Positions 4,640 through 27,675 of a stretch of DNA of 64,000 nucleotides are shown here, piece by piece. A program made the translations under genes and the position numbers. The stretch's first letter is position 1, and the number at the start of each line of letters is the position of its first letter. Source of the stretch: Bullera alba (Eukaryota > Basidiomycota > Tremellomycetes > Tremellales > Bulleraceae); contig BCIX01000003.1 in NCBI GenBank assembly GCA_001600095.1, positions 1,550,001 through 1,614,000 on the forward strand, read 5' to 3'. Under the pieces are notes generated by a model. That model ran no database searches. It was given only the letters and a program-made list of their open reading frames with translations, and was not told where the DNA came from.

Positions 4640-6099
4640 ATGGTGAGCATTCACAGAAACTTCGATCCCATCCGAAAGCCCTGGCTGATTGATCTTAGCC
4701 CCGACGCCAGATCATCATCCCCGTCACCAACGCCTTTCGCGTCGCTACCCCTGACGTACTTCGCCAGATCCTCCTGTACGCGACAACTTCGACTCTCGCA
4801 TCTTGTGTACGAGTCAGTCAGAACTTCTACCATGTCGCCGCACCGCTCCTATACCAGGATGTGGTGTTTCACAACGACGATTTACACTTCCTCGAGGGTG
4901 TCGACGTCAAGCCGAAGGCTGTATCAACTCGCTCCGCTCCGAAAGTCACCAATCTCAAACTCCCATTGCTGCAACACATAAAGACGGTAACTACCACGAT
5001 TTTTGAACGTCGTCCGCATCCAACCCCATTTTCGACATTCGGTTTCCCATGCGTTCCAATGCCTCGATTTGACACAGTCAGGGTGCGATTCCAGGAGGTC
5101 CGACGGTGCCAGCTCTGTGAATCATATTACTGTGAATACATTTATGCCCTGGAGGACCCAATTTTGACCCGAGCGCCGTTCAAGAAGTTGGTTCTCCTAC
5201 CATCAAAGAATATGTGGTTCTCCCTACTACGATGGCAGATTGCCTGTACCAATTTCGACACCCTCACTGTGGTCGTGTCATCTTCCGACTGGTATCCGAC
5301 GGTGGAAGTAGTCCGAAGCATCTTACGCGGGAGACACACGGTCAAGCTTAGAATCATACTCCGCTCGTGGTACCAACATGAGGAGCTCCGCGCAAGGGAG
5401 CTGGGCGAAGACGAAGACGGTGGACTCAGGTCAACTTCGTTGGAGAGACTCATGCTCTTGGTTCACTATTTTTCGAAGTACATTACCGCAGAAAGCCATG
5501 TGTACCTCATCGAGCCGCGCTGCATCAACACGCACCATTCTTACCAGAAAGCAAAATTCCCCACTAAAGCTTGCGCAGCGGAGCTGTTCAAAGCATTCGA
5601 GGCCAAATGGAGCGATGGGTACAACGGCACAAGCAGCGACAAGGCGACGGTTGTCTTCAAGGACAGGAAGGACTATTTGATGGAAGGTGTGTCGGATGAA
5701 GTCGACCCGGGGGAGCTGGCGAGATGGAAGAGAGTTCAGGACTGGGAGGACCAAGCCGACTTTTACGATCAGTACCACCCGGTGATCCTCGACAAACGAC
5801 GCGAGCAGGTCGACTACTACGCCAATCACCCTGATATCATCCCAGTGGCACAACTCATCGAGGAGTATCAGACCGACCCAGACATCCTGTTTTTGGCTGA
5901 GGAAGAGCGACGTGCCGCAGCTGAGGAGTTGGCGCAATGGATCGACGAGGGAGTCACCATGATATTGGTGCAAGAGCTGGTGTATCGACATCACTTTTAC
6001 AACCTCTTCTACCCCTCACGCAAGCCTCACAAATCTCAAGCCATCACAACGAATTACCCCAACAGGCTACCCGCACCTGAACCCATCACCGACGCATGA
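4640..6099 (+). CDS. F-box-like array protein, copy 1 (467 aa)
   Basis: Unknown function. The first coding exon is the start codon alone (4640-4642); intron 4643-4698 (GTGAGC...CTTAG) precedes exon 2 at 4699, which is open to TGA 6097-6099. The N terminus (after PRRQIIIPVTNAFRVATPD) carries an F-box-like helix motif, P-D-x-L-R-Q-I-L-L-Y-A...V-S-Q-N-F-Y...P-L-L-Y-Q-D-V (residues ~20-57). Next come a central C-x2-C-x4-C motif, a conserved KKLVLLPS block, the family signature VVFKDRKDYLMEGVSDEVD, and one ~72-residue Trp/acid-rich unit ending in WIDEGVTM. The start was chosen because the ATG-plus-donor context recurs in most paralogues. Regulation may involve the element at 4029-4051. The F-box assignment rests on pattern only; substrate-adaptor function is inference. 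Confidence 0.8.
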
Positions 6100-7411
6100 C
6101 CTGCGGATACCTGTTCCAGGGGTCGAAGGTATTACCGGTGATGCAGCGCAAGGTGGTATAGGGAGTATGGCGGACGAGAAGTTGGATTTGTTGAAGCACG
6201 TGGGAAGAAGGATGGGTGGATGGAGACACGGATGCTCACACATGACCAGTGGAGACGTATGATAGAGAAGAGAGGACATGCGGAAACGACCAAACGAACA
6301 CGACCGAACGACCAAACGGCTCAAACGACGGCGAACCAACATGACCACACGATATGACCATACTAGACGACTGCATGAACCAACAACGACCTGACGATAC
6401 CCACAACGCCCCTGATACGACACGACCCGGCATACGACTGTATATGACATGATCACGACTTGCGAGCCGTCCAGCGGCTCTTTATGAATCCCATGACAAG
6501 GCTGAGACCGCTCATCCTACATCACTGCAGACGAGGCCACGAGCAGATTTTACATACGTAACGACCACATCATCGACCTTTATGACTCTCTTGTAGCTAT
6601 ACACCATGCCATGCAGACTTGCAAGACACTCTACCTCGCAGCCTCGCGGCCTCACGCAGCGATAGTTGCTGATAGAGCCTACGGAGGAGCCTTGGAGGAT
6701 TGCGTATGCATCGCATGCTGGGTTTTAGGTACGGTTGAACATTGCCGGGACACGGTCGCTTCGAGCGGTCTACGGCCTTGCTCTTCCCGAACTGTTTCCT
6801 CTATTCAAGTGACTTGACCTCAGCGCCCATGCTTCCGCTTCATTCCTGCCCATGAGACTAGACTCTACACCCGGTGAGTATCTGCATCAAGAGCACTGCA
6901 CATCTCGCGAGTCACAGCTGATCGCGTATGTGACAAAGACCACTTGTACCAGTGCTAGCCTACCACCAACTCTCTCTCCACTGTTCACCACTTCTTTGCA
7001 CCACCATTCGGAGACATTTGCTTCCACTGACTCGGCAGACGAGATCAGGAGAAGAGCATCAGAAGCCTAAAGTGCTAGCTGCCATACCATAGCAACACTC
7101 ATTCCAATTGTCGATCCGACTGGCGGCTGATTCAGCAACCATCAGTCCCGCCGATCCCACCGATGGAATAGCCCCGATTCTCGGATGGGGAGGCTGGAGG
7201 AGCAATAGGAGAGCGTGATTGAGAGAGACAGTGGACTCGTCAAGAAGCGACTGAGTGACACTAGCAGTGAGTGACTACGGACCGGCTTCGATCTGCATGA
7301 AGATCCGGAATGTCCATTGTGAGGTGTTATAAGCGGCAGCTGATTGTGTACCTGATAGCTCTATTGCGCGATCAACCCAGAGCCCTTCAAGAACTCTTAA
7401 CATCGGCCAGC
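6100..7411. other. Flank between copies 1 and 2, no gene recognised
   Basis: The first part (about 6270-6430) is T-poor on the + strand with repeated CGACCAAACG-like words, resembling the 3' flanks of copies 2, 3 and 5. Blocks near 6460-6620 and 6742-6765 (CATTGCCGGGACACG) recur after copy 2 and before copy 5, so whole gene-plus-flank segments were duplicated. Short open stretches near 6611 and 6852 have no family similarity and are not called. Confidence 0.6.
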
Positions 7412-9547
7412 ATGGTAAGAGATATGTACTTGTCTCCCTCGCGTCGACACTAGCTGAATGAAGCCTAGCCTCGACACCAAGTCACCGCACCCGTGACCAC
7501 CGCCTTCCGCGTTGCTAACCCCGATATCCTACGCCAAATCCTGCTCTACGCCACAACTTCCACTCTCGCCGCTTGTGTACGAGTTAGTCAAAACTGCTAC
7601 TACGTCGCCGCACCGATCTTATACCAGGACGTCGAATTCCACAGCGAAAGGTTGCACTTCCTAGAGGGTGTCCATGTCATATCGGATGGTGTGTCAACTC
7701 GCTCCGCGCCCAGAATTGCGAATCTAAAGATCCCGTTGCTACATCACATCAAGACGATGACCGTCAACTACGACAAACATAAGCCTCTGTGGCACCACAA
7801 CGCATTCTCAATCTTCCCCCTGGACACACTACCGCGGATCGAAACGATGAGGGTGAAGTTCCATGGCTTGCATTTCAGCACGCTATGCCAGTGCTACGAT
7901 TGCAACACCTTGGACAGACTACCACTGGCGCTGCTACGTCGATCTTCAGTGAACAAGCTGGTCCTTCTCCCCAGTCCTCACCTCTGCAGAATGCTCTACG
8001 CTTGGCGGCTGCCCCTTGCCACTGCCGAGATCTTGACGGTGATCCTGCCAAGTGATGGGCTCGACATGAGCTTGGGGAAGGCCCTCGCGACCGTAGCACG
8101 GAGCTTTGCGTTCAAGCTGAGGCTTATCATTTCCTCGTGGCCGGATACGGAATGGTGTGAGGTGGAACAGAGCGAAGACGGCGAGGAAGAGCCAATATAC
8201 ATTGCCTCGGAAGATAGCATCATGGCATGGATCCTCAACGCAACAAAGGGAAGCTTGAAGCCAATCGAGGTCTATGTCGTGGAACGTCCATGGAAGCGAT
8301 CCCACGCCCCTCAACAGCCAGTAATTCCACTGAAAGTACGTGCCGCGGCATTATTCGACGCATTCGAGGCCGAAGAGGAAGGTTCGATGGAGCGGGCGGA
8401 GGCGAGGGTGCTCTTCAAGGACAGAAAGGACTACCTGATGGAAGGTATAACGGATGAAGTCGATGGGGAGGAGTTGGCACGATGGAAGAGGGCCCAGGAC
8501 TGGGAGGACCAAGCCAGCTTTTACGAGCAGTATGACTCGGTGATTCTCGACGAACGACGTGAAGAATACAACCATCACACCAATCACCCAGAAACCATCC
8601 AAGAGGCGCAGCTCGTCGAAGAGTTTCAAACCGACCCAGACATCCTGCTTCAAGACTGGGAAGATCGATGCGTTCGAGCCGAGGAGCTGGCGGAGTGGAT
8701 AGTTGAAACCCAGGATTGGGAAGATCAAGCCAATTTCCATGGTCAGTACCGCTCTGTAACCATCTATAAACAAGGCTCAGAGCTCGACTATCGCACCGAC
8801 CACCCCGACGCCATCCCAGAGGCGCAACTCATCGAAGAATATCAAACCTACCCCGACATCCCTCTCCGACATTGGGAACAGAAATGCGTGCCAGCCGAGG
8901 AGCTAGCGGAATGGATAGTCGAGACCCAGGATTGGGAAGATCAAGCCGACTTCTATAATCAGGACCGCGCTGTAACCGTCTGTCAACAAGGCGTGGAGCA
9001 CGACGATCGCATCGATCACCCCGATATCATCCCAGACGCGCAACTTTTCAAAGCGTATCAATCCTACCTCGACATCCTGCTGGAGGACTGGGAACAGTGC
9101 GGCGTCCAAGCTGAGGAATTGGCGGAATGGATTGACGAGGCGCATATTTGGGAAGATCAAGTCGACTTTTACGATCAGTACCACCCGGTCGTCTTCAACC
9201 AACCACGCGAACAGGTCGACTACTACACCAATCACCCTGACACCATCCCAGTGGCTCAACTCATCGTTGAGTATCAAATCGAAGCAAACAACCTCTTTTT
9301 GGCTGAGGAACAACGACACGTCGCAGCCGCGGATTTAGCAGAATGGATCGACGAGGGAGTCACCATGACGTTGGTGCAGGAGCTGATCTATCGACATCAC
9401 TTCGACAACCTCTTCCACCCCTTCCGTAAGGCTCGCGAGTCCTCAACCATCATAACGAACGAGCGCAACATGCTACCGACCTCGGAGCCTACCGCCGAAG
9501 AGCGATCCATGGATCCTTGTTCGACGGGTCGAAGTGATTGCCGGTGA
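7412..9547 (+). CDS. F-box-like array protein, copy 2, with four C-terminal repeats (693 aa)
   Basis: Longest member of the array. Exon 1 is ATG only (7412-7414); intron 7415-7468 (GTAAGA...CCTAG); exon 2 runs 7469-9547, stop TGA. After PRHQVTAPVTTAFRVANPD comes the F-box-like motif (PDILRQILLYATTSTLAACV, then SQNCYYVAAPILYQDV), a C-x-C-x2-C variant of the central cysteine motif near nt 7891-7905, NKLVLLPS, and VLFKDRKDYLMEGITDEVD. The C-terminal unit, single in copies 1 and 5, is present four times in exact tandem (8495-9358), which accounts for the extra ~220 residues. The last unit and tail (WIDEGVTMTLVQEL) resemble copy 1 most. The frame is intact throughout, so the expanded form appears functional at sequence level. 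Biochemical role unknown. Confidence 0.8.
8495..9358 (+). repeat. Four tandem 216-bp (72-residue) coding repeats in copy 2
   Basis: Units begin at 8495, 8711, 8927 and 9143, each exactly 216 bp apart. Each starts with (Q/H)-x-W-E-D-Q-(A/V)-x-F and ends near L-A-E-W-I-(V/D)-E. Internal landmarks are HP-(D/E)-x-I, AQL-(I/V/F) and an acidic DWE motif in the first three units. Units are diverged in sequence but not in length, implying old in-frame duplications kept under length constraint. Confidence 0.95.
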
Positions 9548-10744
9548 TAGTGCGCAAGGCCGTATAAGGCGAATCGTGAACGAGGAGCTGGGGATCACGA
9601 GTCTGAGGGAGGGAGGATAGATACATGGATGGAGACACGGCAGCTGTGTACAGGAGTGGCGATGGATGATGGAGACGAGAGGAAACAGGGGACTCGGAAG
9701 CGACCAGACGACCATACAACAAACGACCAAACGACATGACGATACGAATCGACTGCAGGAGCCGATGACCACCTGAACGATCGACAGATCGGCCCATGTA
9801 CGATACGAAACAGCAGGCGACTGCACACGACATTGGACACGACTTACGAGCTATCGAGCGGCTCGCATGGACGCAACGGAACAACCACGACCACTCTTTC
9901 CAGATCGCCGCAGACGACCACACGAGCACCTTTTCATGACACAATACTGAACAAACGCCCCAAGTGTCTTCCTATATGACTCTCTTGTAGCTACAAATCA
10001 TGCCAATGAAGACTTGCAACACCCTTCCACTCGCAGCCCCAGTGCCCACGCAGCGATACTCGTCCTATGCTGAAAGGGGAGGATAGGAGAGTGTTACGTA
10101 TTCAATTTCATGCTGCGTTTCAGGTTGATGATTGCCGGCCGGGACATCTGGCTTGTTACCTCGTCATCCTACCTCACCTTGACTTTCAACATCTTCGCTC
10201 CATGCCTCCTCATGATTTAATGATCGCCAGACTGTAAGTATATCGCTTATGAGCCGTTCCGTGAGTACTGTCAGCTGATGACCGACGTCCCAGTCGAGGT
10301 GACTCTAGCCGTCAACCATCCTCTACCAATTCCTCACTTCCTCGGCGGCTTGTCCTGGAGCAAGCCATGGGCAGGAGCGCACGCAGCCTACTGTGCTAGC
10401 TTCCAGAAGCTTTCAGCTTTGTCTTTTGCCCTTCAAACAGCGGTCTGGTCAGCAGAGGAAACTCAAGAACAGCCTTGCCTGAGGTATGGAATAGCCTATT
10501 CTCGAATCGGGAGGACCGGGGAGGACCCCTGGTCCCTGTAGCGGGAGAGAGAGGGACACTGGACACTCAAGCGGAGCTCTCAAAGTTACACAGCAGTGAG
10601 TGTTACAGCCTAGCATCGATCTTCACGAGCGTCCAACTGGTTGAGTGTGAGGTTTCGGAGTGTTAACTTACTTGTAGCTGATAGTGACCCAAGACCGACG
10701 GGATCCAACCATAGTCCATCTACGACTTTCCAACATCCGCCATC
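9548..10744. other. Flank between copies 2 and 3, no gene recognised
   Basis: It repeats the layout of 6100-7411: a T-poor stretch with CGACCAAACG words (~9700-9800), a block containing CTCTTGTAGCTACA (~9984), then TTACGTATTC and TTTCAGGTTG (10094-10127). The 10600-10744 segment resembles the region just before copy 2 (GTGAGTG..., AGCTGATAGTG). Open stretches at 10278-10541 and 10475-10666 lack family similarity. Confidence 0.6.
10094..10127 (+). promoter_or_regulatory. Array upstream element, copy 3
   Basis: TTACGTATTCAATTTCA followed by TTTCAGGTTG, about 650 bp before the copy 3 start codon. It matches the elements before copies 1, 5, 6 and 7. Functional status unknown. Confidence 0.4.
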
Positions 10745-11748
10745 ATGGTGAGAGATACCTATCCATATCACTGGTCGGCTACACTAGCTGAACGAGCCCT
10801 AGCCTCGACGGCCGGTTGTCGTACCAGTCACCACCGCCTTTCGCGTCGCCGCCCCCGATACTCTGCGCCAAGTCTTGCTCAACGCGACGCCTTCCACCCT
10901 TGCAGCATGTCTACGAGTCAGTCAGAACTTCTACCACGTCGCCGCACCGATCTTGTATCAGGATGTGGAGTTCTTCAACGACGGGACAAGCTTCCTGGAA
11001 GGTGTGCTAGTCAGGCCCAGGGCTGTCGCAACCCGCTCAGCGCCTAGAGTCGACAACTTCAAAGTCCCGCTGTTGTCAAACATCAAGACGTTGACCGTCA
11101 ATTTTCAGAAAGCTCGCAAAGGAGGAAAACCGGAAGCCGATTTGCCAACCAACTACAATTTGGCTCGACTACCCCAAATCCAAACCCTCCGCCTAAAATT
11201 CCACGACCTGGGATTCTGCACACGCTGCCAGGCGTACAACTGCGACTTCCGCTAAAGATACACACATATGGATCAAATTGTGCTTCGAACGAAGTTCGAG
11301 AAGCTGGTCCTGCTGCCCTCCGCTATCCACTGGCAGCACCACTCCAGATGGCCATGTGCCTCCGCCGGTCTGGAGGCATTGACTATAGTCGTGAACTCTC
11401 ACGAGATTCCTCTAGCTTTGGGGTCAGCCATCGGACACCTGGCGAGAAATCTCGCAGTCAAGCTGCGGCTTATCATCTTTTCGCGATCGGTCCACGCGAA
11501 GCGGAGTCCACCAGGGCACAGCGAGAACATGGGCGGGCCGCGTGCTCCTTCGGTCCTCGAAACGAGTATTGCGAAGACGGTCTATCATTCAACGAAGGAA
11601 TGCTCTGCAGAAACCGAAGTCTACCTTGTGGAAGCTCGATCGGAGACGACCTACGGTTCCTCACACCCTGAGGCATTGCCATCCAAGGCTTGCGCACAGG
11701 AGCTGTTCAGGACATACGAGGCTAAACATGTCGAGATTCACAGGGTCG

Positions 11749-12061
11749 TGAGTCGGCTGCTCTACCGACGGACCAGTGGATCGCTGTTTCTCTCAGTCAG
11801 TCTCTGTGAGAGGCGATTGCATGTACTCACCTGTTTCTCTCAGTCAGTCTCTGTGAGAGGCGATGAGAGAAACAGGACTACAAGTGGTTTGGTATAAGTA
11901 TACTGGCAGCGCGAGGCAGACCCGCGAGTACAATAAGAACAGAGTACAATAAGACTCGAGAACAATAAGGATAGTATCCACTAAGGACAGAGCGTAGGGT
12001 GGAAGCGTCAGGAGAACAATAAGGTATCATGGTCTCAGATTTCGACAAAACAGCTCAGGCT
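11749..12061. mobile_element. ~313-bp insertion in copy 3, possible LTR-type remnant
   Basis: It has no counterpart in any paralogue and is flanked by a 4-bp GTCG on both sides (11745-11748 and 12062-12065), a possible target duplication. It starts with TG and contains a 34-bp direct repeat, a 13-bp inverted repeat and four copies of ACAATAAG (11930, 11946, 11962, 12016). Near its 3' end is TATCATGGTCTCAG (12025-12038), loosely like a primer-binding site complementary to initiator tRNA. It has no coding capacity. The exact ends and the class are uncertain. Confidence 0.45.
11784..11864. repeat. 34-bp direct repeat with overlapping inverted repeat
   Basis: The same 34 bp (CTGTTTCTCTCAGTCAGTCT...GGCGAT) occurs at 11784-11817 and 11831-11864, starts 47 bp apart. 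The CCTGTTTCTCTCA at 11830-11842 is matched in inverse by TGAGAGAAACAGG at 11864-11876. Both lie within the insertion in copy 3. Confidence 0.9.
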
Positions 12062-12515
12062 GTCGGGCTCACCGAAAGACTTGAAGGCGAACGTGGTCTT
12101 CAAGGACAGGAAGGACTACCTAATGGAGGATGTAACGGATGAGATCGATGCGGAGGAACTTGTGAGGTGGAAAAGGGCACAGTATTGGGAGGACCACGTC
12201 AGCTTTTACGACCAATATCACCCCGCGATTATCGGTGAACGACGTAGAGAGTACGACCATTACACCAATCACCCGGAAATCACCCAAGAGGCGCAACTCA
12301 TCGAAGAGTATCAAAACGACCCAGATATCCTGCTCCAAGATTGGGAAGATCGATGCGTTCGAGCCGAGGAGCAGGCGGAATGGATGGATGAGGAAGTTAC
12401 CATGACCTTGGTCGACGAGCTGGTGTAGCGCCACCACTTTTACGATATCCTCTTACCCTTTCGCAGACCTCTTCGTCATCGAACCCTCAAGTCAATCGAG
12501 GCGAAAACCGCATGA

Positions 12516-13594
12516 TCATGGGATGCACGGTCGCGCGGGACAATGGACGGGATCGGGGGCTGTAGGCCATGAGTGTGGAGGAGGGACGGTATGAAGGGGA
12601 TTAAGGAAGACACGGTATGCGTGTAAGATGATCAGTGGAGACGGACCACGGACGATACAGGAGACGACCCAACATGCCCAAACGACAAAACAATTACACG
12701 ACCAAAGTGACCCAAACGGCCCAACGGGCCCACGACTACATGACGAACATGACCAACAGCGAGCAGAACGCCTTCTATGCAACCAACTCAGCATTCAAAT
12801 GTAGATGACATATAACACGACTGATACAATCCAGCAGCTCGCCCATGAACTCAACGACACGACTCGACGCCTCACTCTAGATTGCTGCAAGCGACAGCTC
12901 GAACATGAGCCTATCACGCATTGTACATACATACCATGTTCTCGACCTATGCGACCCCCATGTAGCTATACACCACGCTATTATAGACCCGCCAGAGCTC
13001 TCACCAGGCCTGTATGGCTACTGCTAGTCTGCTTGTGCCCGATAAGAAGGGCTCGAGTGTATCACGTGACCAGCATGCAGCATGCCCAACCTCGCTGCTT
13101 CACAGGCTCACAGCTCACATGTCACAGACATGGTTTCAGGTTGGACGCCGCCAGCTGCTCCGTCCTTCGTACCTCTTCTGACTCAAGGCCGGCAGGCTTC
13201 TGAGCCAACCATCACCCAGCAGCTCATGAGCATCGGTGGGGATCATATGCCCAAGCCTACAATCAGCCCTTCAGCGCTTAGCCTCGAAGGCTTTTCGGAA
13301 TCCAGCCAATCCATCCCTTCTCCGAATATCGAGCGACTCCTGGCATTGTTTGCTACGCTAGACCCTATCGGAGTGGAAGACGTCACGTGAACAGAGGGAG
13401 GGACAAGACAGGAACATACATAAGGTAGACTAGTGGAGACCTGGACAAGAGGGTTGAGCCCCCGCTAGCTACAGTGAGTCACGACGGACTTGCCAGAATG
13501 CTGAGTGCTCGAGCTGACTTTTGACTGACAGTCCTCGTAGGACAGTGCTTCTCCCAAAGTATACTGCGCTGAGGACACTTTGATTATCGCCATT
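12516..13594. other. Flank between copies 3 and 4, no gene recognised
   Basis: It has a T-poor stretch with CGACCAAA words (~12660-12760), as after copies 1 and 2, and a block near 12960 (TGTAGCTATACACCA) matching ~6593. TTTCAGGTTGG at 13134 is a partial version of the array upstream element. No convincing coding sequence. Confidence 0.6.
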
Positions 13595-14806
13595 ATGGTG
13601 AGAGATTGTCACCTCCGACGTCGACGGTCATTTGCAGGGCTGATCCGTGTTCTAGTCGCAAGACCGCCCTGTCATTCCCATCACCCTCGCCCGCCAAATG
13701 ATAGCTCCCGACATCCTACGTCAGGTGCTGGTCTACGTGACAACCCCCACTCTCACAACTTGTCTTCGAGTCTGCCGAGATTTCTATCGAGTCGGCGCAC
13801 CGTTACTATACCGGCATGTGAGATTCTTCAATGACGGGCCCAGCTTTCAAGAGGGTGTGGACGTCGTGCCGAAAGGTATTGCAACTCGCTCCAGGCCCAG
13901 AGTGGAGATCTAAAGGCCGGACTATACCGATACATCAGAACGGTGTCGATCACCAGTCCCGAATCGCCGTACATTGATAAAAGTTGGTTAGGAGAGGTAA
14001 TCGACGAGGTCACTATGTTCCCAATGCCGCAACTCGAAACAGTCAGGGTACGCTACCTCAACGCTCCGTTGGAGTCCGCTGCTTGCCGACCCTGCTGGGC
14101 ACACTACGATCGGGACTATGGTTGTGAATACGGCTCCAGTCTGACTCATTACCTTCTGATGAACTTCGCAGCCAGGAAGCTGGTTTTCCTCCACTACCAA
14201 GGTCCCCCGGTCCACCCATCTCACAGACGGCTAATAGAGCTGGAGCCTGTCGAGACCCTCACTTTGGTCATCTATCCGGACTGCTTCACAGATCTTCTAG
14301 CATTAGCCATGGGTCGAATGCACTGGATCCACCTCCCGACCTTCCGCATCATCTTTTGCTATTTAGACCAGGAAGACCTATGGATTTTCCGCAGTGAGAG
14401 ACACATGAGCCCCGAAGACACTTTTATTCATATGGTATTCTGCGCCACATACGACACATACAGTCGTTCAGCCGAGATCTACCTTATTGGTGATGTCATG
14501 CCACAGACACTCGAGGCAAGGAGAGGTAAATTGCTCCTGAGCAAGGCTCGAGTAGCGGAACTATTCGACACATATGCGGCTCTACGATACGAAGAGCTAA
14601 GGACCCCGATGAGTGAACGGGCCAAGGTGGTGTTCAAAGATAGACGGGACTATTTAGAGGAAGGGGTAATGGATTAAATTGATGCGGAGGAGCTAGCGCG
14701 GTGGAGGGGAGCCCAGGACCGTGAGGATGTCGAGGACCGCGAGTATGCTCAAGACTGTGAGGATGCTCAGGACCGGGGCGTTCAAGCCGACTTCTCCGAC
14801 CAGTAA
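13595..14806 (+). pseudogene. F-box-like array copy 4, frameshifted and nonsense-mutated
   Basis: ATG-only exon 13595-13597, intron 13598-13655, exon 2 from 13656 (SQDRPVIPITLARQMIAPD, then the F-box-like motif). At about 13906 one base is missing compared with copy 2 (GAG-ATCTAAAG against GCGAATCTAAAG), so the frame hits TAA at 13911-13913. The +2 frame then carries the rest of the family pattern, including a C-x2-C motif, RKLVFLHY and VVFKDRRDYLEEGVMD. There a GAA-to-TAA type change (14675-14677) stops it inside the signature. Degenerate ED-rich sequence follows to 14806 with no recognisable terminal unit. The two lesions together make this a clear pseudogene. Confidence 0.88.
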
Positions 14807-16150: not shown

Positions 16151-17577
16151 ATGGTGAGAGATCGCTTCGTACAACACCTTTGGTTCATGACACCGACTGG
16201 TATGAATTTCAGCCGCGCATACAACCCATCATTCCCCCCGCCGCTGCCTTCCGAGTAACTACCCCCGACATCCTACGCCAAGTGCTCCTCTACGCAACGA
16301 CTGCTACCCTCGGGGCTTGTCTTACAGTTTCCCGGAACTTCTATGAAATCGGAGCACCGCTCCTGTACCAGCATGGCGTACATTGCGACAACAGCACCTT
16401 CGGCTTCCTAGAAGGATTGTTGATAGACACCAATTCAACTCCTTCCGATCTCCAAGCTGTCAATCTCAAAGCACGATTGCTGCAATACACCAAGACGATG
16501 ACAATCATCTTTTACAACTTCGTCTCCCATGAGCGGGCAGGAGCAATCATCGAGGAGCTTACTATATCCCCGACGGTACGTCTTGAGACTGTCAAGATAG
16601 CCTTTCGAGCCGATCAGGAGCAGCTCTCGTGCGAGTGGTGCCGACACAGTTACTGCCAGTGTAGCTATCACTTCGAGCACGGTCCAGAGAAGCTGGTTTT
16701 GCTCCCCAACTTCCTACCCGCGATATCGCTACTGGGATCGATGCTGGGGTACGTGGGGGTGTTGACTGTAATCGTGGACTCTCAGTGTTTTTGGACGTAT
16801 TCGGGCTCGGATCTGTCAATCCTGGCGCCGTATGCACCGATAAGGCTTCGAATAATATTCACCATCGGAATCGACCGTATTCAGTGGAATGACCCGGGTC
16901 AGACCAAACCAGGGACCGATGCGAACATCTTTCCCCCTATCGAGGCAATGGTGATGGACACAATCACATCGGCCATCACATCATCCCAGTGCATCGAGGT
17001 ATACCTCCCAGAACCTCCTAATCACCAATCACACATATCGAGGAGACCTGGATCGATGCCGAATACGGCTCGCGCAAAAGAGCTCTTCGAGGCATATATG
17101 GTCCAGCAGGATGAGACTACAGAAGCAAGCAACCACAGCTTTGCCAAGGTAGTGTTCAAGAGCAGGAGGGAGTACCTGATGGAGGGCGTGACGGACGAGC
17201 TCGATGAGGAGGAGTTATCGAGGTGGAAAAGCGCGCAGGATTGGGAAGACCAAGTCGATTTCTACGATCAGCACCACTCCGTGATCCTCGATCAACAACT
17301 CGCAGAGCTCGACTACCACGCCAATCACCCCGATCCCATCCTAGAAGCGCAAGTCATCGAAGAGTATCAATCCAATCCTGACATCCTGCTCCAAGATTGG
17401 GAACAAAGGGGCGTGCGAGCCGAGGAGTTGGCGGAACGGATTGACGAGACGATCACCATGGCATTGGTGCAAGATCTGGTTTACCGGCATTACTTTTACA
17501 ACGTCTTCTTCCCCCCGCGCCGATCCAATATTCCAACAACCCTCTCTGTCTCCGAAAGCACCACAAAACTTTCCTGA
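16151..17577 (+). CDS. F-box-like array protein, copy 5 (455 aa)
   Basis: ATG-only exon 16151-16153, intron 16154-16212 (GTGAGA...TTTCAG), exon 2 16213-17577 with TGA stop. The N terminus PRIQPIIPPAAAFRVTTPD leads into PDILRQVLLYATTATLGACL...SRNFYEIGAPLLYQ, the F-box-like motif. The central cysteine motif is SCEWCRHSYCQC (C-x2-C-x4-C-x-C), followed by EKLVLLPN and VVFKSRREYLMEGVTDELD, then one C-terminal unit with QDWEDQVDFYDQ and ILLQDWEQRGV. The tail ends in LVYRHYFYNVF, as in copy 1. The frame is intact and the gene appears functional. Function unknown beyond the inferred F-box relationship. Confidence 0.82.
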
Positions 17578-18927
17578 CCCGCAACTATGACGAATACAAG
17601 CTCAAGACTAACCCCTAATCCTTCTCCCCCCTCATCGGGGTGCGAGTCAGCGTTTCAAAATCTGAGGCGTCGATCGATCACAAGACGGAGTCATGAGAAG
17701 GAGGCCGGGCGCGATGGACGGGAGACGTCTATGGCAGGCGAAAGGAGACACAGCATGACTATCCTATCGATTGTCCTTGGAGATCAACGGCAGCCGACTG
17801 AAGGAACGCCCAAGCACTAACGACCAACGATGATACGACCGGACGACCAAGCGACGCACGACTCATGACCCACGACACACAGATGGCACTCCAAGATGAC
17901 TCAGCACCAACATAGAACCCAGCACATGACCATACGAGTCGATGGATACCGCTTCGACCCCGAAGTCGCAACCTCATCATGGAAACAACGAAACGACGAC
18001 GACCACTGCTCACCAAGATAGCAGCGAGGGCACATACACTTTCGAGACCACATCACAATCATATGATAGGTACTATGGGCTATTCTTATGCCACCATCAT
18101 GTGAATGCAGAGGTACACCATACGAGTATCAGATTCGCATGACCCACATAGAGTGCACAGACCCCCTCATCACCAGCTGCGGCCATTGGCCCAAGACGAG
18201 TAGTAGTGCAACTGTTTACGCGACTCATCACATGGAGGACCTGTCTTATTGTCATTGTAATGGCCTCGTCTACCACCGTTGAGCCATGCTGATTGCTGCT
18301 CACTAGCTAGTAGCTAGTCGCAGTGCTAACCGTGACAGGCGAAGACGCTTTGACCGTTTCAAAGTTGGATTACGTACTCGATTTCAGGCCCTGCTACCCT
18401 GCTCCGCATGCAGGCAGTTTCAGATCGAAGTCAGCCGGAGGGGAAAGCTAGTCGGGCAGGATCTATCTTGACTCTATCTTTCCTCCGTGGCCTCGTTCAC
18501 CTGCTCGTCCCCCATACCGGTACATAACTCTTCCAGGGATCTGTTATACACCACCAAAGAAGAATCAAGCTCTTCATTCGACCGGCTTCCAGGTCCAGAC
18601 CATAGTCCGGTCTGACCAGGACCGCTACGCCTAGTCGCCTGGTGGTCGGACCAAAAGAGGAGAAAGGGCTTCCAGCGAAACACTGGCAACTCGAATACAT
18701 CCATGCTATGAGGAAAGGGTCGGAACAGCGCTAGGCAATGGAGACTTCCCTGATTGGGAAGGGAGTCAAGCGAATTTGTAAAGGTGAGTCGGTGCATGTA
18801 GAGGAAGGCATGGTGTCTCGAAGTCGGTGCAGCGGCTGAGTGATGGCTGACCATGTGATTTAGCTGCCTGATACGCATGATAACCAGCATCATAAAGACT
18901 GTCACCAAGTAGCGTTTACGATCCGTC
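17578..18927. other. Flank between copies 5 and 6, no gene recognised
   Basis: A T-poor CGACCAA-rich segment (~17820-17900) follows copy 5, as after copies 1-3. The 48-bp block 18341-18388, ending in TTACGTACTCGATTTCAGG, is 45/48 identical to 20647-20694. A long reverse-strand open stretch from 18474 into copy 6 is antisense to it and is not called. Confidence 0.6.
18341..18388 (+). promoter_or_regulatory. Array upstream element, copy 6 (48-bp block)
   Basis: 48-bp block starting GAAGACGCTTTGACC and ending ATTACGTACTCGATTTCAGG, about 540-590 bp before the copy 6 start codon. It matches 45 of 48 positions of the block ahead of copy 7 and shares its core with the elements of copies 1, 3 and 5. 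That conservation is much higher than in the surrounding flank. Confidence 0.5.
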
Positions 18928-20102
18928 ATGGTGAGTGGTCGCGGTTCTTCATGATCCGTCCCACCAGCTGATCCGAACCTAAGCCACAAGCAAACCCCTC
19001 GCATCCCATGGCCGCTGCCTATAGTGTCACGACACCCGATATCCTCCAACGTATCCTCATCTACGCGACCATTCCAGCCCTCGCAGCATGTCTGCTGGTT
19101 TGCAAGAATTTCTACCAAGTTGCCGGACCAATTCTGTACCGGGATGTCGAGATAGTCGACACCAAATCCACAATCCTCGAGGGCGCCCTTCAGGAACCCA
19201 AGACAGCCGGGTCCTCGGCGGCAGTGCAGAACCTCAAGGTCAAACTGTTGGCCCACGTCAAGACGATGACTTTCATCCTTCACCGACGACATCATTGCAA
19301 GGATCCTTTTGACGAGCCCCCTGCGGTAGACATGCCCGACTGCGACACAATCAAGGTGATTTTTCAGGCACGTCCGCGATCGAATGATGAAATTTGTTTC
19401 GACTGCGACGAAGGGGACTGCGGTTTTGGACTCGGTCCGGCCTACACTCTGCTTCTCAAAACAAGACCGAAGAAGCTAGTCTGGTCGAATTTTCGCCTTT
19501 TTCGAAACGCCATACGTACCTGGGATCTGAAAAGCTTGGAGCCCATACTGGAACAAGTGGAGATATTTACTCTCATACTTCACCCGCGTACCATAATGGA
19601 GGTTCACTGGTGGGATACGACACATTTTCTCGACCGCTTCGAACGCAAACCGATACATCTGCGTATAATCATCTGCCCCTGGGCCCCTTGGGTGATGAAA
19701 GCTTCCGGGGAATCCGTTGACATCGAACAACATGACATAGCCGACCCTCCCGCCACGGAAAAGCGCATTGCGGAGTTCATATGTCGAATGAACCAGCAGT
19801 TTCCTCGACATGGCCAGAAGACTGAGATATACTTGATAGAACAGTGGGGCCCATCAACTGTCTGCCAACAACTTCCGACGAAAGAGCGTGCAGCCGAGCT
19901 TCTTCAGGCCTGGGTCACCGAATATACGGGACATCCGAAATATCCTAAAGAGACTCGATTCTACGTCCCAGGGCGGGTGGTGCTCAAGAACAGAAAGGAC
20001 TACCTGATGGAGGGTGTGGAGGATGAGATCGACTCAGAGGAGCTGGCCAGGTGGAAACGACTTCAGGATATAGAAGATCGGATGGGTGTTATTCAACCTT
20101 GA
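18928..20102 (+). CDS. F-box-like array protein, copy 6, short C terminus (373 aa)
   Basis: ATG-only exon 18928-18930, intron 18931-18983 (GTGAGT...CCTAAG), exon 2 18984-20102. The N terminus PQANPSHPMAAAYSVTTPD leads into PDILQRILIYATIPALAACL...CKNFYQVAGPILYRDV. The central motif is C-x2-C-x4-C (CFDCDEGDC), then KKLVWSNF in place of KKLVLLPS, a change shared with copies 8 and 9. The signature VVLKNRKDYLMEGVEDEID is present. The protein stops shortly after RWKRLQDIEDRM with GVIQP, so the ~72-residue terminal unit is missing. It may be a genuine short form or a recent truncation; nothing downstream to 20160 restores the family sequence. Confidence 0.78.
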
Positions 20103-21429
20103 CATCGACAAATCAAGCGACATGAGCCAACTGCATTCCGAATCCAGAACCCAGTCGGGATGAGGATCGACTTCTTCACCCTATCACAAGGAGGACTACG
20201 AGGTGTCAACAGTCGAAACGATACCTACGGGCGACTTAATCTCTTGACTATGGCTCATACTCTTTACAACCATTCGCGATTCCGCGTTAGGGGGCTGTGC
20301 CTCCTCCTCAACATCGACGGGAACAACGATAATCATGACGAACGAAACGAACGCACTTTCACGATATGCAAGGGCCAGGACTGCCGATTACGATAATTAA
20401 TACAGGACCGACGTCACAGAGCACGAGACTCAGACGAGAGGGGCGGCGGAAGCCTGCGCTGGGACAAGGATACATTCGAGCCGCTTCCCTTTCCCAGGTG
20501 ATACCTTCTCTTGTACATACCGCCGTCCCCTCCATGTGTCCGCTCTCTTCTATATGTATCCCTACTATCACATGCTTGGCTTCGCCTCTGCCCCGACCGA
20601 AGGCAGCCGCAGGCCCGCAGCTGCGTACAGATCAAGGGCAGAATTGGAAGACGCTTGGACCGTTTCAGAGTTGGATTACGTATTCGATTTCAGGTCGTGA
20701 GACGTTGCGCACTGAGCGAGTTGCCCGAGCGATCTCTATTATATCTATGTCTCGCTCTTCTCTCCTCAGCACACCTTTCCTCCTCACCTCCTCCCTCCTT
20801 CAATCCCTCCCTTCTTCGCAGCCTTCTCCTCTCATCCTGTCTCAAGCCTCGTTTCCTTCTTTGTCCGCTGTACAACCCGACGGTCAAGCTGGAGCTGCAA
20901 GCTATCTTCCCCTGGACCAGTACCATTGGGAACCGCCATCACCGACACTGAGGCTGAAAGGCCTCATTGGTTCTCAGAAATCATTCCGACCGTGTTTCAA
21001 TAGGAAAAACTCAGAGTAATCAACTCTCAGTCCACGCAAGAACACAGGTGACAAGACGGCCCTAAACTCTCCAGTATTCCGAGTTTCCGACAGCCTACAG
21101 GTCACCCTGACCTCCGATTTGCGGTCGACCCCCTTGAAGCTCGCCGCTCACGCCGTCCATCATCCGGCCAGACCATCATACGACGGTTGATCAACTTCGC
21201 GGGCAAATGGTGATAAGGGAAGCAAACCGTTGAGGTGCAAAGACTGAAAAGCATTGAGGAAGGGGGAAAGAAAGGTGAGTTGTATAGGCACCAGCTACCC
21301 GATGCCAGTCTCGAGGCTGCCGCCACAGCAACCGAACTGAGGATGGCAACTGACTTGTACATCTAGTATACAGTACATTGCAGCATCCTCCGACCCGACA
21401 AACGGCACACAAGCGTCCAATCCATCACA
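20103..21429. other. Flank between copies 6 and 7, no gene recognised
   Basis: It contains the conserved upstream block 20647-20694, then a C/T-rich stretch (~20750-20860) that could be promoter pyrimidine tract. Open stretches here have low-complexity Ser/Pro composition and no family similarity. Confidence 0.6.
20647..20694 (+). promoter_or_regulatory. Array upstream element, copy 7 (48-bp block)
   Basis: GAAGACGCTTGGACC... ending ATTACGTATTCGATTTCAGG, ~740-780 bp before the copy 7 start codon; 45/48 identical to the block before copy 6. Confidence 0.5.
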
Positions 21430-22928
21430 ATGGTGAGATTCAATATCTCGACTTCGACTGGCCTGGTCCACAACAACGCGACAACAACTTATCGACATTT
21501 TAGACTTCTTCCCAACTCATCGTGGCGAATCATACGAACACCGTCCCCGCAGGTGTCACGACTCCCGCCATACTCCGTCTTATTCTCCTGTACTCGACGA
21601 CATCGGCACTCGGAGCTTGTCTCCAGGTCTGCAGGAGCTTCTACAACATGGTCGCACCAATCTTGTACCGGGAGGTAGAAATCGTCAACTCTGGAACCAA
21701 AATACTGGAGGGCGTCCTCAACAAACACACTCTACCGACACGACTTGCACCCAGGGGACAGAACCCCAAACTCGAATCATTACGCAGAATCCGGACCTTG
21801 ACCATCACACTTCACGATCGCGAACGCAAAAGACCACCAGCTGCTCCCGATACGATATACATTCCAAATCTTGTGACACTCCGATTGCACTTCCTCAAAA
21901 CCCATGGACGGGTATCCGATTGTGACTGTCTCGGGATCGAGTGCATATACGGGTATAGCTACGGCCAAGCGTATCAACTCTTATTCGGATTGCGGCCCCA
22001 GAAGCTGGTGTTGCTACCTTCAGTGCGACTCGCCTCAGAACTGAAACTATGGCGCGAGGTGCTTGCACCCATCAAGATCCTGACGGTCATCCTCTCCCAT
22101 CATCATCTCGACGAAGCCATAGCGCATAGCATCTGTCGATACTCGATTCAAGGCGAATGGATACGCTTGCGTCTCATCATTTGCCCGTGGGCTGATCAAA
22201 TGGAGCACCGCGCCTACATTCCCGAAGAATCCGTCAACATGTCATCGACGAGCCTGTCATTGGAGATGAAGCTTCTACGGTTCGTCTACTCCTTGATCAA
22301 GTGCTACAACACGATCGAGGTGTATCTTATAGGACCGCGAGGAGCTCAGTCGTTCGAGTCAACTGGTCACGACTCGCTGCCTACGAAGGCGCGCGCCACC
22401 GACCTCCTCCACCGCATGGACCACCGGTACAAGGATTACGAATATGACGAGTATGATGAGGAGGATGAAGATGATGAGCATAAGAAGGTCGATAAGGACG
22501 ACGAGGATGATGGCGATGGTGACAACGACGAGGATGATGGGGATGACGAGAATGATGAAGATGAGGAGGACCATGAGAATCATGAGGATGACGAGGATCG
22601 CGAAGATCATGAAGATCACGAAGATGACGAGGACGTCGAGGATGATGCTGAAAATGAGGACGATGACGAAGAGAGCAGACCTGAGGTGGAGAGGGTGATT
22701 TTCAAGGATAGAAAGGACTACCTGTCAGAGGGGGTGACGGACGAGATCGATATGGATGAGTTATTGCGGTGGAAGCAAGCTCAAGATTGGGAGGACGAGA
22801 TGGAGTCTTATGACCGATATCATCCGCTGGTTCTGGCTCAACAGCGACAAGCGGTTCACAATCTCATCGCCCATCCAGACGTCGTCTCAGAGGACCAATT
22901 GATCAAGGAGTATCAAGGGGAGTGGTGA
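21430..22928 (+). CDS. F-box-like array protein, copy 7, with acidic tract (475 aa)
   Basis: ATG-only exon 21430-21432, intron 21433-21503 (GTGAGA...TTTTAG), exon 2 21504-22928. The N terminus reads TSSQLIVANHTNTVPAGVTTPA, then PAILRLILLYSTTSALGACL...CRSFYNMVAPILYREV. The central cysteines are C-x-C-x4-C (CDCLGIEC), followed by QKLVLLPS. Before the signature VIFKDRKDYLSEGVTDEID lies an ~80-residue Asp/Glu tract (22434-22677) absent from the other copies. After it comes a partial terminal unit (QDWEDEMESYDRYHP...QLIKEYQ) ending early at residue 475. The frame is intact. The acidic tract probably grew by slippage of GAD codons; it could form a disordered acidic spacer. Confidence 0.8.
22434..22677 (+). 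repeat. Imperfect GAD-codon repeat coding an Asp/Glu tract
   Basis: About 240 bp made almost only of GAT/GAC/GAG/GAA codons with a few Lys, His, Asn and Gly. It lies in frame inside copy 7. The antisense frames read as hydrophobic Ile/Met strings, an artefact of the repeat. Confidence 0.95.
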
Positions 22929-23790
22929 CGATCCCGCTCGAGGGCTCCGAAACCCAGACACCCTCGTCAAGGTGGAATCCCTATACTGTCTGGTACGACC
23001 ATACCACGAGACCTCAAGATGTACCATCGACACTCGATCGATGTCCCTCCCGTCCTGAAATCTCTCCGCTTCATTAATCATTCACCACTCCTCATCTCTC
23101 GGCCTCAGGCAAAACCGAGTACTCGACCACGATTCCAACACGAGCAGCCTCCGATCGCGACATAGCCTTGGACATAGCCTTGGATTTCAGAACCCTCTTC
23201 ATGTCACTTTACGAACTCCGACACGCTCACGCCCACGCCCACGCCCACGATCGAGCACGAGGTTGAACCGCCAGACTGTTGTAGACTCATACCCGCCCTG
23301 TACTTTGTACCGCCAATTTCGTCATCGTGCCATAGCGTGCACTTCACCCCCTGTGTAGCCCTTGCATCGTAGGCACTTTGTTGTATGTATCTTCCAGACA
23401 CTTGGAGCAGCCCGTTGCCTCAGACTACCATAAGCAGTCAATCGGACCGTCGGACGCACCCTCGCGCACTCCTCGTAGGTGGACGAAGTGCCGCCCACCA
23501 TTAGAGCGCAAGCCGAAATTGTAATGCTTCGCTCCAGGAACAACTACAAACTCGTGCTCAACTCCAGAACGGTTCGTAATGCAGCGCCACCCAAGCTCTA
23601 ATCACTCTACCCCGGCGCACCGCATCAATTCATGCGGCGCACGCAGCCGATTCTCTACCACGCGACACGCGACAGAAAGTGCGATGTCAACATGAGGTCT
23701 TGCTTCTCTACTGGTGCTCGTACAACATGCGCATACCGCTTCATCCTAGTATCCATCCAATCAAACGTTCGCGTTATTGCGACCACAGTC
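22929..23790. other. Flank between copies 7 and 8, no gene recognised
   Basis: It holds small direct repeats (GACATAGCCTTG x2 near 23160-23187; CACGCC-type repeats near 23225-23250). An open stretch from 23632 is in frame with the first copy 8 exon and could extend it upstream, but has no family counterpart. Confidence 0.5.
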
Positions 23791-24104
23791 ATGAGCCAAC
23801 TCTCATATACGAGCTCGCAACTGGAGGAATGGACGACTACTGTGGGTTAGCTTTCGCGGCTCTGGTCTCAGATACATCACTTTTCAACTGACCTCAAATC
23901 TCTAGTCGCACGTCAATGCGCCCGAGCCCACTTCGATGAGTCAGCTTCCGTATTCGAGCTCCCAGCTTGAGGCGTGGACCATCGTCAGTACGCGAGTCTG
24001 AGACCGAGAGAGAAGCTGACCTTAAGACGCAGCCACACGACTCCACGACCACAGCTATCGGTGAACTGCCGTATTCGAAGTCCCAACTCGAGGAATGGAC
24101 GATT
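23791..24104 (+). repeat. Three tandem exon-intron units encoding an SQL..SSQLEEW peptide
   Basis: The peptide core (L-x-Y-(T/S)-(S/K)-S-Q-L-E-(E/A)-W-T) is encoded from 23800, 23945 and 24066. Each core is followed by a donor site and an intron ending in a CTGAC/TTGAC branch site and AG, and each exon keeps phase 0. This looks like duplication of a whole exon plus its intron. Confidence 0.7.
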
Positions 24105-25598
24105 GTAAGTATCTGCAAGATAGTAAAACGAGATATAGCAGCTTTCAGTTGACATAGACCTTTCGCTTTCCAGCCATGGCCTCGGATCGTTGGTCCCGCT
24201 ACAGCAGTCACGACACCTGACATACTGCGGCGCATCCTGGTTCACGCGACCACATCGACCCTCGCCACATGTCTTCGGGTATGCCGGAACTTCTACACCG
24301 TCAGCGGACCAATCCTCTACCGGGACGTCGAGATTGTCGACAAGAAGATCACGATCCTCGAAGGAGCAACGTACGCACCTGTCTCAGGGCCGATCATACC
24401 GAACCTCGAGGAGGAACTCTTGCGCCATATCAAAACGATGACGATCACACTCGATAAGCGCAGCACCTGCGAAGATCGAACTGTAAAAGTACCTGAGGGC
24501 GACATTCCTAACGTCGAAACGGTCAAGGTGAATTACCAAGCTTATACGCAACTGCCAGTCGTTTGCAAGAAATGTCAGCAACACTGTTGCGACTACAGAG
24601 CCGGTTCCGCCTATACGATCCTGTTTCGGACGGCGCCCAAGAAGCTCGTCTGGGTGCCCAGGTTCCATTCGTCGCGTCAGCGGTCGGCTCAGCGGTTGTG
24701 GCGAAGAAGCGCGGCTCCCCTCGAAGCTCTCACCGCCATCTTGTCCTCGCTCCGTGTCGACCAACACGAAATCTTGAACTTATTCTGCGTGGGGTGGTCA
24801 GCGATGTTCGACACGGGGTCGTCAGCGCGAATACTGCCAAACCTGCGAATCGTTATCTGCTCGTGGGCCGAAAAGATGGGCGATGGGATCAGGCAGCGCG
24901 AGAATCCGATAGTGGAACAACAGGTGATTATAAACCTACACAAAGTGACCCGGACGTATTATCGGAAGGTCACGATCTACATCATAGACCCTATCGAAAC
25001 GCTTTCACCGACACCAAACCAAGGAACTTCGATGCTCAGCGTGGTTCGTGCCAAGGAGTTGTTCGAAAAGTACGACCGTGAAGCAGCAAAGGACGGGTCT
25101 CATCAGCCGGAGGTGGTCTTTAAAAGTCGACGGGATTATCTAGCCGAGGGCGTGACGGACGAAATCGACGCGGAGGAACTGGCTAGGTGGAAGCGGACTC
25201 AAGACTTTGAGGACAGAATGGAGTCACTCGACGACTATCGCGAGCAGGCACTCGCTCAACGGAAAGACGAAGCCGGTATCCTCTATCACCAATCGAATCT
25301 GGTCTCACAGACGCAGTTGATCGAAGAATATCGAGTCGCCGCACTCGCAGCACTTCAAGACTGGGAGCAAGATTGCGTTCAGACGGAGGCAATGGCTCAG
25401 AAGCTCGCAAAGGTGAATAACATCTGCGACGTCGTCGGAGATCTCTGGTATCACAACCCGCCAAAACCTTACATGTCGCATATCGCCCGCGACTTCCAGA
25501 CCGACCCTCGAAAGGTGATCTCAGATCTCTATTCCACGACTACACTGCGGTTCGAGAGAAAGTCCTCTTGGACGCTGCCGCGGAGACCGACCGCGTAG
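23791..25598 (+). CDS. F-box-like array protein, copy 8, with three repeated N-terminal exons (541 aa)
   Basis: The only copy without the ATG-only exon. Proposed exons: 23791-23841, 23906-23983, 24033-24104, 24174-25598; introns of 64, 49 and 69 nt, all phase 0. The first three exons encode related peptides with the pattern S-Q-L-x-Y-x-S-S-Q-L-E-x-W-T. Exon 4 begins PWPRIVGPATAVTTPD, then PDILRRILVHATTSTLATCL...CRNFYTVSGPILYRDV. The central motif is C-x2-C-x4-C-C (CKKCQQHCC), then KKLVWVPR and VVFKSRRDYLAEGVTDEID. A diverged terminal unit (QDFEDRMESLDDY...LQDWEQDCVQTEAMAQ) and an extra ~60-residue tail follow. Stop TAG 25596-25598. Start choice is uncertain because the frame is open upstream to 23632; exon 4 is secure by homology. 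Confidence 0.7.
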
Positions 25599-26042
25599 AG
25601 GATGCTAGAGATGCATTGCTTGCTTTCTGGGGGTTTGGCACTATGTAGGATACAATCTCAGCTGTGACAACAGCGCTCTCTGACTTGGTTCGAGTTCAAT
25701 GGTGAGTACTGAGTACTGAGTGCTCTCATGTCACAAGTAGCTAGCTTCGCTTGCACCCGCGAATGCTCGACGCTCGAGCCCGTTCTGGACATTCGGCTTC
25801 AACATCTACTCACGCAAATTTTCGTGTTTCAACATGAACGATCCCGCCTAGGCCCGCCTCCTGACTACCGCTCCAACCTCGCATTCCCTGTCTGGCCAGC
25901 TTGCGAGTTGTATTGACATCCTTCAACAACACCTCTGATCGCTCGTAAACTATCTGCACCTTACAAAGGCCCCGTACCCGCCGACAGTAGCTGATTCGAA
26001 CACCCGCCAACCGTCAACTCGAAGTGATCCCCTGTCGATGAT
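25599..26042. other. Flank between copies 8 and 9 with a second ATG-donor site
   Basis: An ATG directly followed by GTGAGT occurs at 25699-25704, with a possible acceptor CAAGTAG near 25739. It mimics the start of the array genes but leads into a short frame that stops at ~25850. It may be the remnant of another array start or an alternative 5' exon of copy 9. Confidence 0.4.
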
Positions 26043-27675
26043 ATGGTGAGTCTCTGAACCAGCGAGATCGACCGGTCAGCGGTCAACGGCCATCCTCGGC
26101 TGACTCGAAAGCTGCAGCTTGAAGACCATCCCGCACCTCCTCCCACCGCTGCCCATAGGGTCACCATACCCGATATACTCCAACGCATCCTCGTCCATGC
26201 CAGCACCCCGACTCTCGTAGTTTGCCTCCGGGTCTGTCACAACTTCTACAAAGTTCCTTCACTAGTCCTCTACCGACATGTCGAGACCTCAGATACGGAC
26301 TCGGCTATCAATATTTTCGAAGGCGCGCTGGTCGTCACGGACCCCGCGGCAGGTCGCTTCAATCTCAAGCGGGATTTGTTACGCCAAGTGAAGACTATGA
26401 CGGTCACACTAAAACGGCACGAGCACTGCGCATGCGAACAAACACCAGCAATAAGACCAGCGATCGACGTTTTCGAAGTGGAAACAATCAGGTTGAACTT
26501 CGGTCCGCATGCAGGCCCCCATCGGTTGTGCAGGAATTGCCTGAAACTCCAAGGCGATTACAATGCCGGCTCAGCCTGGCAGGTCTTGCTATGGAGTAGA
26601 CCTAAGAAGCTTGTGTGGGCTCGAGGGCCTCACATCCTGCGTATCGCCGAAGGCTTGATCCCAATGACGAAGGGTATGACAACCCTTACCGCAATTGTAT
26701 CTCCGCTATCGGTCGTCGGCTACCGTCTCACGAAGGAGACCGGAATTCAATAGAGGACACTGTCCGAACCTTTCACACCTCCGGCTCATTGTCACCTCAT
26801 GGGCCGACCAGATGGCGGCAATGGAGAGCCCTCCTGCCAGATACAGCCAAAATTGGTGGATGAGCTTACTGATCGAAGAGGACGCGATGGACAATTTGCA
26901 TTCCGCATTCAGGGGGTACCAACACGTTGAAGTCTACCTCGTAGACCCTATACCGATTGCGATAGTAGACGACGACACGGACGATCTCATCTCTTGGGTA
27001 GAGTTCGACCATACTTGTGCCGCCAAGCAATACGGGTTATATGCGGCAGGATTGATCACGACTGGCGATGACCTGCCCCCGGGCCCCAAGGTGGTATTCA
27101 AAAGTAGAAAGGACTACATCCAGGAAGGAATCACGGACGAGATCGACTCGGAGGAGCTAGGGAGGTGGAAGCGAGATCAGGACTTTGTGGACAGGATGGC
27201 GGATTTAGACTCGCACTACGAGCAGGAACTCGATGGACAACACGACCATATCCAGCCTCTCGCCGATCACCCGGATACCATCTCGGAGCCGCAATTAATC
27301 GAAGAGGTCCAGATCTATCAGCTTATCCTACTCGACCATTGGGAGCAGGAATGCGCCAAAACTCAAGCCGAAGCTGAAGAGACCGAAGAGCGTCTGGTCG
27401 ATATCTTGGTGATCAGAGAGATCTGTTTCGAGGAACTACGAGCTCCTAGCTCCTCGGTCCTCGGTCCCGAAATGGTACTCGCCGTACAGAAGGCAGCGCA
27501 AGAGATCCTATCATTTCACGAGCGCTGGCGGAAACTGCGAGGTCGCAAGTCTTCGGGCATCGATCACACATTGTCACCCGACTTTACAAAGGCAGCGCAG
27601 ATGCTCACATCGTTCTTCCAGCTGGACCTGTGGCCCGCGCCAAATTGGAAAGAACCAGAGATGACCACGGCATGA
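26043..27675 (+). pseudogene. F-box-like array copy 9, single frameshift
   Basis: ATG-only exon 26043-26045, intron 26046-26117 (GTGAGT...CTGCAG), exon 2 from 26118 (LEDHPAPPPTAAHRVTIPD, then PDILQRILVHASTPTLVVCL). The cysteine motif (CRNC) and KKLVWARG follow. The frame ends at TAG 26751-26753. Family sequence continues without loss in the +1 frame from RGHCPNLSHLRLIVTSW (~26753) through VVFKSRKDYIQEGITDEID, a terminal unit and a long tail to TGA 27675. Removing one base near 26750 would rejoin both parts; no intron with a usable donor phase was found there. The second part is long and undamaged, so the lesion is recent or a sequencing/assembly error; if so the gene would be intact. Confidence 0.7.

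Follow-up and report, generated by a model that had tools for sequence, protein, structure and literature searches.

What can nine related genes, standing in a row on one strand of a small fungal genome, encode, and for how long have they stood there? The question is raised by a 64-kb stretch of the Bullera alba assembly (C3:1,550,001-1,614,000, in a genome of 19.4 Mb in 7 contigs), the whole of which is called the window here. Its plus strand carries nine copies of a single family (g1 to g9) between positions 4,640 and 27,675. The original prediction, made from the letters of the window, had described nine related genes of the same orientation between GLT1 and a sirtuin gene, and their coordinates and their strand are confirmed here, as are both neighbours by profile matches (Table 1). 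It is probable, in our judgment, that the array encodes a family of F-box proteins serving as substrate receptors of the SCF (Skp1-cullin-F-box) ubiquitin ligase, in which the F-box and a signature near the C terminus are held fixed and the variable middle is probably the target-binding part. The family was searched for in its own genome by six-frame comparison, in which the best candidates were scored and the match counts are thus lower bounds. With g5 as query 18 matches were obtained, touching all nine copies, with g8 16 and with the C-terminal piece of g5 12. Since every one of these matches lies within the array, the family was found at one place only in this genome.

One line of evidence for the receptor reading is the distribution of conservation along the proteins. 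Over the 36 pairs of copies, amino-acid identity is 43-82% in the F-box and 56-79% in the signature (where g4 is compared over 17 codons only), whereas it is 18-37% in the middle. A conserved F-box with a variable middle is the pattern expected from a constrained docking on Skp1 together with diverging target binding, and the earlier suggestion that the family recognizes variable substrates fits the variability of the middle. The shared signature, KLV block and Cys motif, which the original prediction had named, can be aligned in all nine copies, g4 ending inside the signature; the Cys motif reads C-x2-C-x4-C or a variant, its spacing differs in g2, g4 and g7, and the last Cys is missing from g9. 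In Pfam the C-terminal signature is without a match, and neither the middle nor the tail behind the signature has a family above the cut-off, the matches at E ≤ 1 (in g2 and g9) reaching 12-13 bits against cut-offs of 22-27. The strong constraint on this signature is the unusual part of the family. Gene conversion as the force behind the conserved parts was tried on the 36 pairs and rejected, the lowest uncorrected p being 0.037 and none being significant after correction. In the tail of g2 and g3 the silent difference is low (proportion of silent differences, pS, of 0.28 versus 0.64 in the middle), and judging from this a local exchange between the two is possible.

The N terminus had been called F-box-like by motif pattern, and profile searches bear this out to a degree. 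When the nine N-terminal pieces were compared with Pfam, PF12937 (F-box-like) was matched by all nine at E ≤ 1 (best 4.9e-6; 22.2 bits in g1), PF00646 by eight and PF12586 (DUF3760) by five, as against none of the nine shuffled controls for any of the three families; four of the shuffled pieces each gave a single sub-threshold match, to a family unrelated to these. A profile search of the PDB with the nine pieces returned two matches at E ≤ 10, each insignificant alone and both of them F-boxes (KDM2B, 1.3; KDM2A, 2.2). The genome-wide search with PF12937 lists seven of the nine copies, four above the cut-off; of these four, one passes only with its neighbours in frame. The claim of an F-box-like N terminus thus stands, with between one and four of the nine copies above the curated cut-off depending on the search, and from these profile comparisons the N terminus of the array is likely to be a divergent F-box. 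A gene for Skp1 is present in this genome.

Several results nevertheless weigh against reading the family as F-box receptors. When whole open reading frames (ORFs) were scanned against Pfam, PF12937 appeared at E ≤ 1 in eight of the nine genes (g2 being without it) and above the curated cut-off in one. The genome-wide PF12937 search also produced sub-cut-off matches in 2 of 14 control genomes (bacterial), so that sub-threshold matches to this profile can arise by chance, and in the corresponding PF00646 search the array is missing altogether at E ≤ 0.1. A full-length profile of six copies compared with the PDB listed no F-box, its matches being two troponin C chains and one FYVE chain at E ≥ 0.24. 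A model built from 14 of the 21 F-box stretches that were read in the other clusters, which are described below, separated six of the nine copies from shuffles at the 5% level, and hhalign of the array against those stretches gave an E of 0.019 and a probability of 2.4%. Behind the F-box, the tail is variable (22-72% identity over 21 comparable pairs), and LxxLxL-like motifs are more frequent in the middle than in shuffles (5% level) in two of six copies only, so that a middle made of leucine-rich repeats is not established. Taken to its end, this line of evidence would reduce the F-box match to a short helical stretch that resembles an F-box by chance, in a family with another function. The low scores of most copies, the array's absence from the PF00646 genome search and the weak comparison with the genome's other F-box stretches all speak for such a likeness, but the nine pieces match one and the same profile where their shuffles do not and the PDB search with them listed F-boxes only, and we consider it very improbable.

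If the family does encode substrate receptors, the N-terminal F-box would dock on Skp1 within the SCF ubiquitin ligase, the divergent middle of about 250 residues would bind the target, and the charged signature, conserved near the C terminus, might serve as a shared structural cap or a second contact. The tail behind it varies more; in g2 it contains repeats, and in g6 it is short. The present set would then have come about by old tandem duplication, after which the middle diverged and single copies decayed. One may go a step further and see in the array a small, inherited repertoire of proteins that recognize targets, in which the F-box and a new charged signature frame the diversified middle and the signature offers a further common docking site; this is possible, though we hold it with considerable doubt. 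The signature is also what suggests a different role. Its conservation is about that of the F-box, g2 carries repeats of the segment that follows it, and the middle has no known substrate-binding domain above the Pfam cut-off, as would suit F-box proteins that bind Skp1 without any part in ubiquitination (a non-SCF role) and whose working part is the C-terminal signature. On the other hand, a set of receptors would be expected to have conserved parts with a variable middle between them, and while the data do not separate SCF from non-SCF proteins, we take the non-SCF role to be unlikely.

How old the array is can be read from its silent sites. Whole-length dS (synonymous substitutions per synonymous site) is at least 1.05 in each of the 36 pairs, four of which lie beyond correction, and the duplications are therefore old; dN, its nonsynonymous counterpart, exceeds dS in no pair or region in which dS can be computed. 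In a tree of 11 rows, three of whose eight inner branches have good support, g6, g8 and g9 are set apart from the rest with good support; among the remaining copies g7 is basal, followed by g4 and g5 and then by g1, g2 and g3 with moderate support, and the order in the tree is that on the map except for g6 and g7. Three protein searches, each of which scored only the 8000 candidates with the most shared words, yielded only P0002 and P0005, which are pieces of the window itself, and the close relatives P0001, P0003, P0004 and P0006; the proteins P0002, P0004, P0005 and P0006 were called from internal starts. P0004 best matches g1 (97%, with a 9-residue duplication relative to g1), P0003 best matches g2 (78%, the repeats of g2 being present too), P0006 best matches g3 (97-98%) and P0001 best matches g6 (96%). 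Since the relatives of g1, g2, g3 and g6 each best match one copy, these four copies, at a minimum, are older than the split from those lineages.

Decay of single copies is ongoing at the locus. As had been predicted, six copies are intact and three are broken: the main frames of g1, g2, g5, g6, g7 and g8 are open, and g3, g4 and g9 carry breaks. In g9 no splice pair that would explain the break by an intron was found by eye, g3 and g4 having been viewed less closely, and an assembly error could still account for its frameshift. The 319-bp insert in g3 is a solo long terminal repeat (LTR), with TG...CA ends, a target-site duplication, a further copy in the genome and a close relative of g3, P0006, that is without the insert. 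The copies in the window and on C5 are identical and have different 5-bp target-site duplications (AAACA and AAGTG), and their identity suggests recent movement of the LTR. One DNA search listed no further copies of the 319-bp sequence; the full element was not looked for.

The tandem family had been taken in the original prediction as a sign of fast gene turnover. On this reading copies would be rapidly born and lost under the pressure of targets that vary, for example selfish or foreign proteins. Three broken copies out of nine, a solo LTR in g3 that its close relative lacks, the 22% difference between P0003 and g2, the 9-residue duplication of P0004 and a middle that is the most diverged part of the protein are all in keeping with it. 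However, no recent duplicate is found among the 36 pairs, the relatives in other lineages match single copies at 78-98%, and dN never rises above dS where the latter is computable; recent rapid birth is thus unsupported, and we regard a fast-turnover array as quite improbable.

Is such a tandem array an exception in this genome? The original prediction held a large tandem family of this kind to be unusual, and of this the nine-copy array itself is real, but it does not stand alone. At E ≤ 0.1 the genome holds 57 matches to PF12937 (38 above the cut-off) and 37 to PF00646 (23 above the cut-off). With gaps of up to 7 kb allowed, 27 of the 57 PF12937 matches sit in seven clusters, six of the 27 being in this array, whereas 1000 random placements gave on average 2.4 and at most 12 clustered matches, placed on one line of genome length with contig ends and gene density ignored. 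The array is thus the largest of several F-box-like clusters here and not a lone oddity. In the other six clusters F-box ORFs were read at 21 places, each as the ORF with the F-box only and later exons left out. They resemble the array in their neighbouring F-box-like copies and differ from it in that none of their genes was recovered by the genome searches with g5, g8 and the C-terminal piece of g5; the largest of them belongs to a different family (Table 1).

Comparison with known systems places the family within a familiar pattern, with differences. Like F-box proteins of PF12937 and PF00646, whose motif spans about 45 residues, its members match these profiles near the N terminus (9/9 and 8/9 pieces at E ≤ 1); they differ in lying mostly under the curated cut-off and in having no Pfam family above the cut-off behind the F-box. 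The F-box genes of Caenorhabditis, according to the available part of one study, number from 39 to 1426 per species with species-specific expansion, and show tandem duplication, a constrained N-terminal F-box and a more diverged remainder (PMC8665587). The array shares these last three features and differs from what that part describes in comprising nine old copies at one place and in having a C-terminal signature that is conserved and not diverged (PMC8665587). For basidiomycetes, the accessible portion of one survey gives PF00646 counts of 3-18 in nine non-agaric species and 43 in its Agaricomycetes column (PMC4469406); the 23 matches above cut-off counted here come from a six-frame search and are not directly comparable with those numbers. 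In the parts available of this survey and of a second study, the size of the F-box set varies between lineages, and no tandem array is described (PMC4469406, PMC8893723). Among titles and abstract openings no tandem F-box array in a basidiomycete yeast was found, which is weak evidence.

The gene models of the nine copies are given in Table 1. Apart from the conserved C-terminal signature, a point of interest is their common first exon, which, together with the 216-bp repeats of g2 and the solo LTR in g3, goes beyond the original prediction. In eight of the nine copies the start codon alone makes up the first coding exon and is followed by GTRAG and by a phase-0 intron of 53-72 nt, as read from the splice-site sequence, from which the splicing of this ATG-only exon is predicted. 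Of the 13 ATGGTRAG strings in the window, 11 are on the plus and 2 on the minus strand, and eight of the 13 are family starts. The three 57-bp units upstream of g8 may be exons, in which case an exon triplication is possible. Between the genes, a 58-bp repeat recurs at 6555-6612, 9949-10006 and 12924-12981, that is, downstream of g1, g2 and g3, which suggests that the duplicated unit included the 3' flank; another repeat, of 62 bp and 85% identity, is found at 18341-18402 upstream of g6 and at 20647-20708 upstream of g7. An Rfam scan of window positions 4,000-29,000 gave no match. The 5.8S rRNA has no match in the assembly at E ≤ 0.001, and ribosomal DNA may thus be absent from it.

Table 1. 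Features of the array, its neighbours and related sites elsewhere in the genome (window positions unless a contig is named)
Feature	Position	Strand	Remarks
GLT1 (glutamate synthase) coding pieces, left neighbour	2..3728	+	PF01645, PF01493
g1, open	4640..6099	+	ATG exon 4640-4642, 56-nt intron 4643-4698, main exon from 4699, 466 codons; splicing predicted
g2, open	7412..9547	+	ATG-only exon, 54-nt intron, main exon 7469-9547, 692 codons
g2 tail repeats	8495-9357	+	four 216-bp (72-aa) copies, from repeat analysis
g3, broken	10745..12428	+	in-frame stop 11253-11255 and solo LTR
Solo LTR inside g3	11729..12047	+	319 bp, TG...CA ends; AAACA at 11724-11728 and 12048-12052
g4, broken	13595..14750	+	frameshift near 13.9 kb; stop 14675-14677 within signature
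g5, open	16151..17577	+	ATG-only exon, 59-nt intron 16154-16212, main exon from 16213
g6, open	18928..20102	+	ATG-only exon, 53-nt intron; short tail, end soon after signature
g7, open	21430..22928	+	ATG-only exon, 71-nt intron
g7 insert	about 22453-22666	+	acidic, low-complexity, about 210 bp, before signature
57-bp units upstream of g8	23780..24102	+	three copies (starts 23780, 23925, 24046), read as exon-like
g8, main exon open	24153..25598	+	sole copy without ATG-GTRAG start; 5' end unsure
g9, broken	26043..27675	+	ATG-only exon, 72-nt intron; one frameshift near 26.7 kb
Sirtuin exon, right neighbour	29215..29625	-	PF02146, 52.6 bits
Second identical 319-bp LTR (L023)	C5:1,563,506-1,563,823		AAGTG on either side
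Largest other F-box-like cluster (L013, L014)	C1:4,080,142-4,095,918		seven matches, six on - strand; different family

Should the array encode receptors as proposed, nine paralogous receptors would be mapped at one locus, six of them with open frames, and their signature and their middle could be tested separately. It would also mean that a small fungal genome with other F-box-like clusters can hold a large tandem array of one F-box family, and that such a tandem array can be old and not recent.

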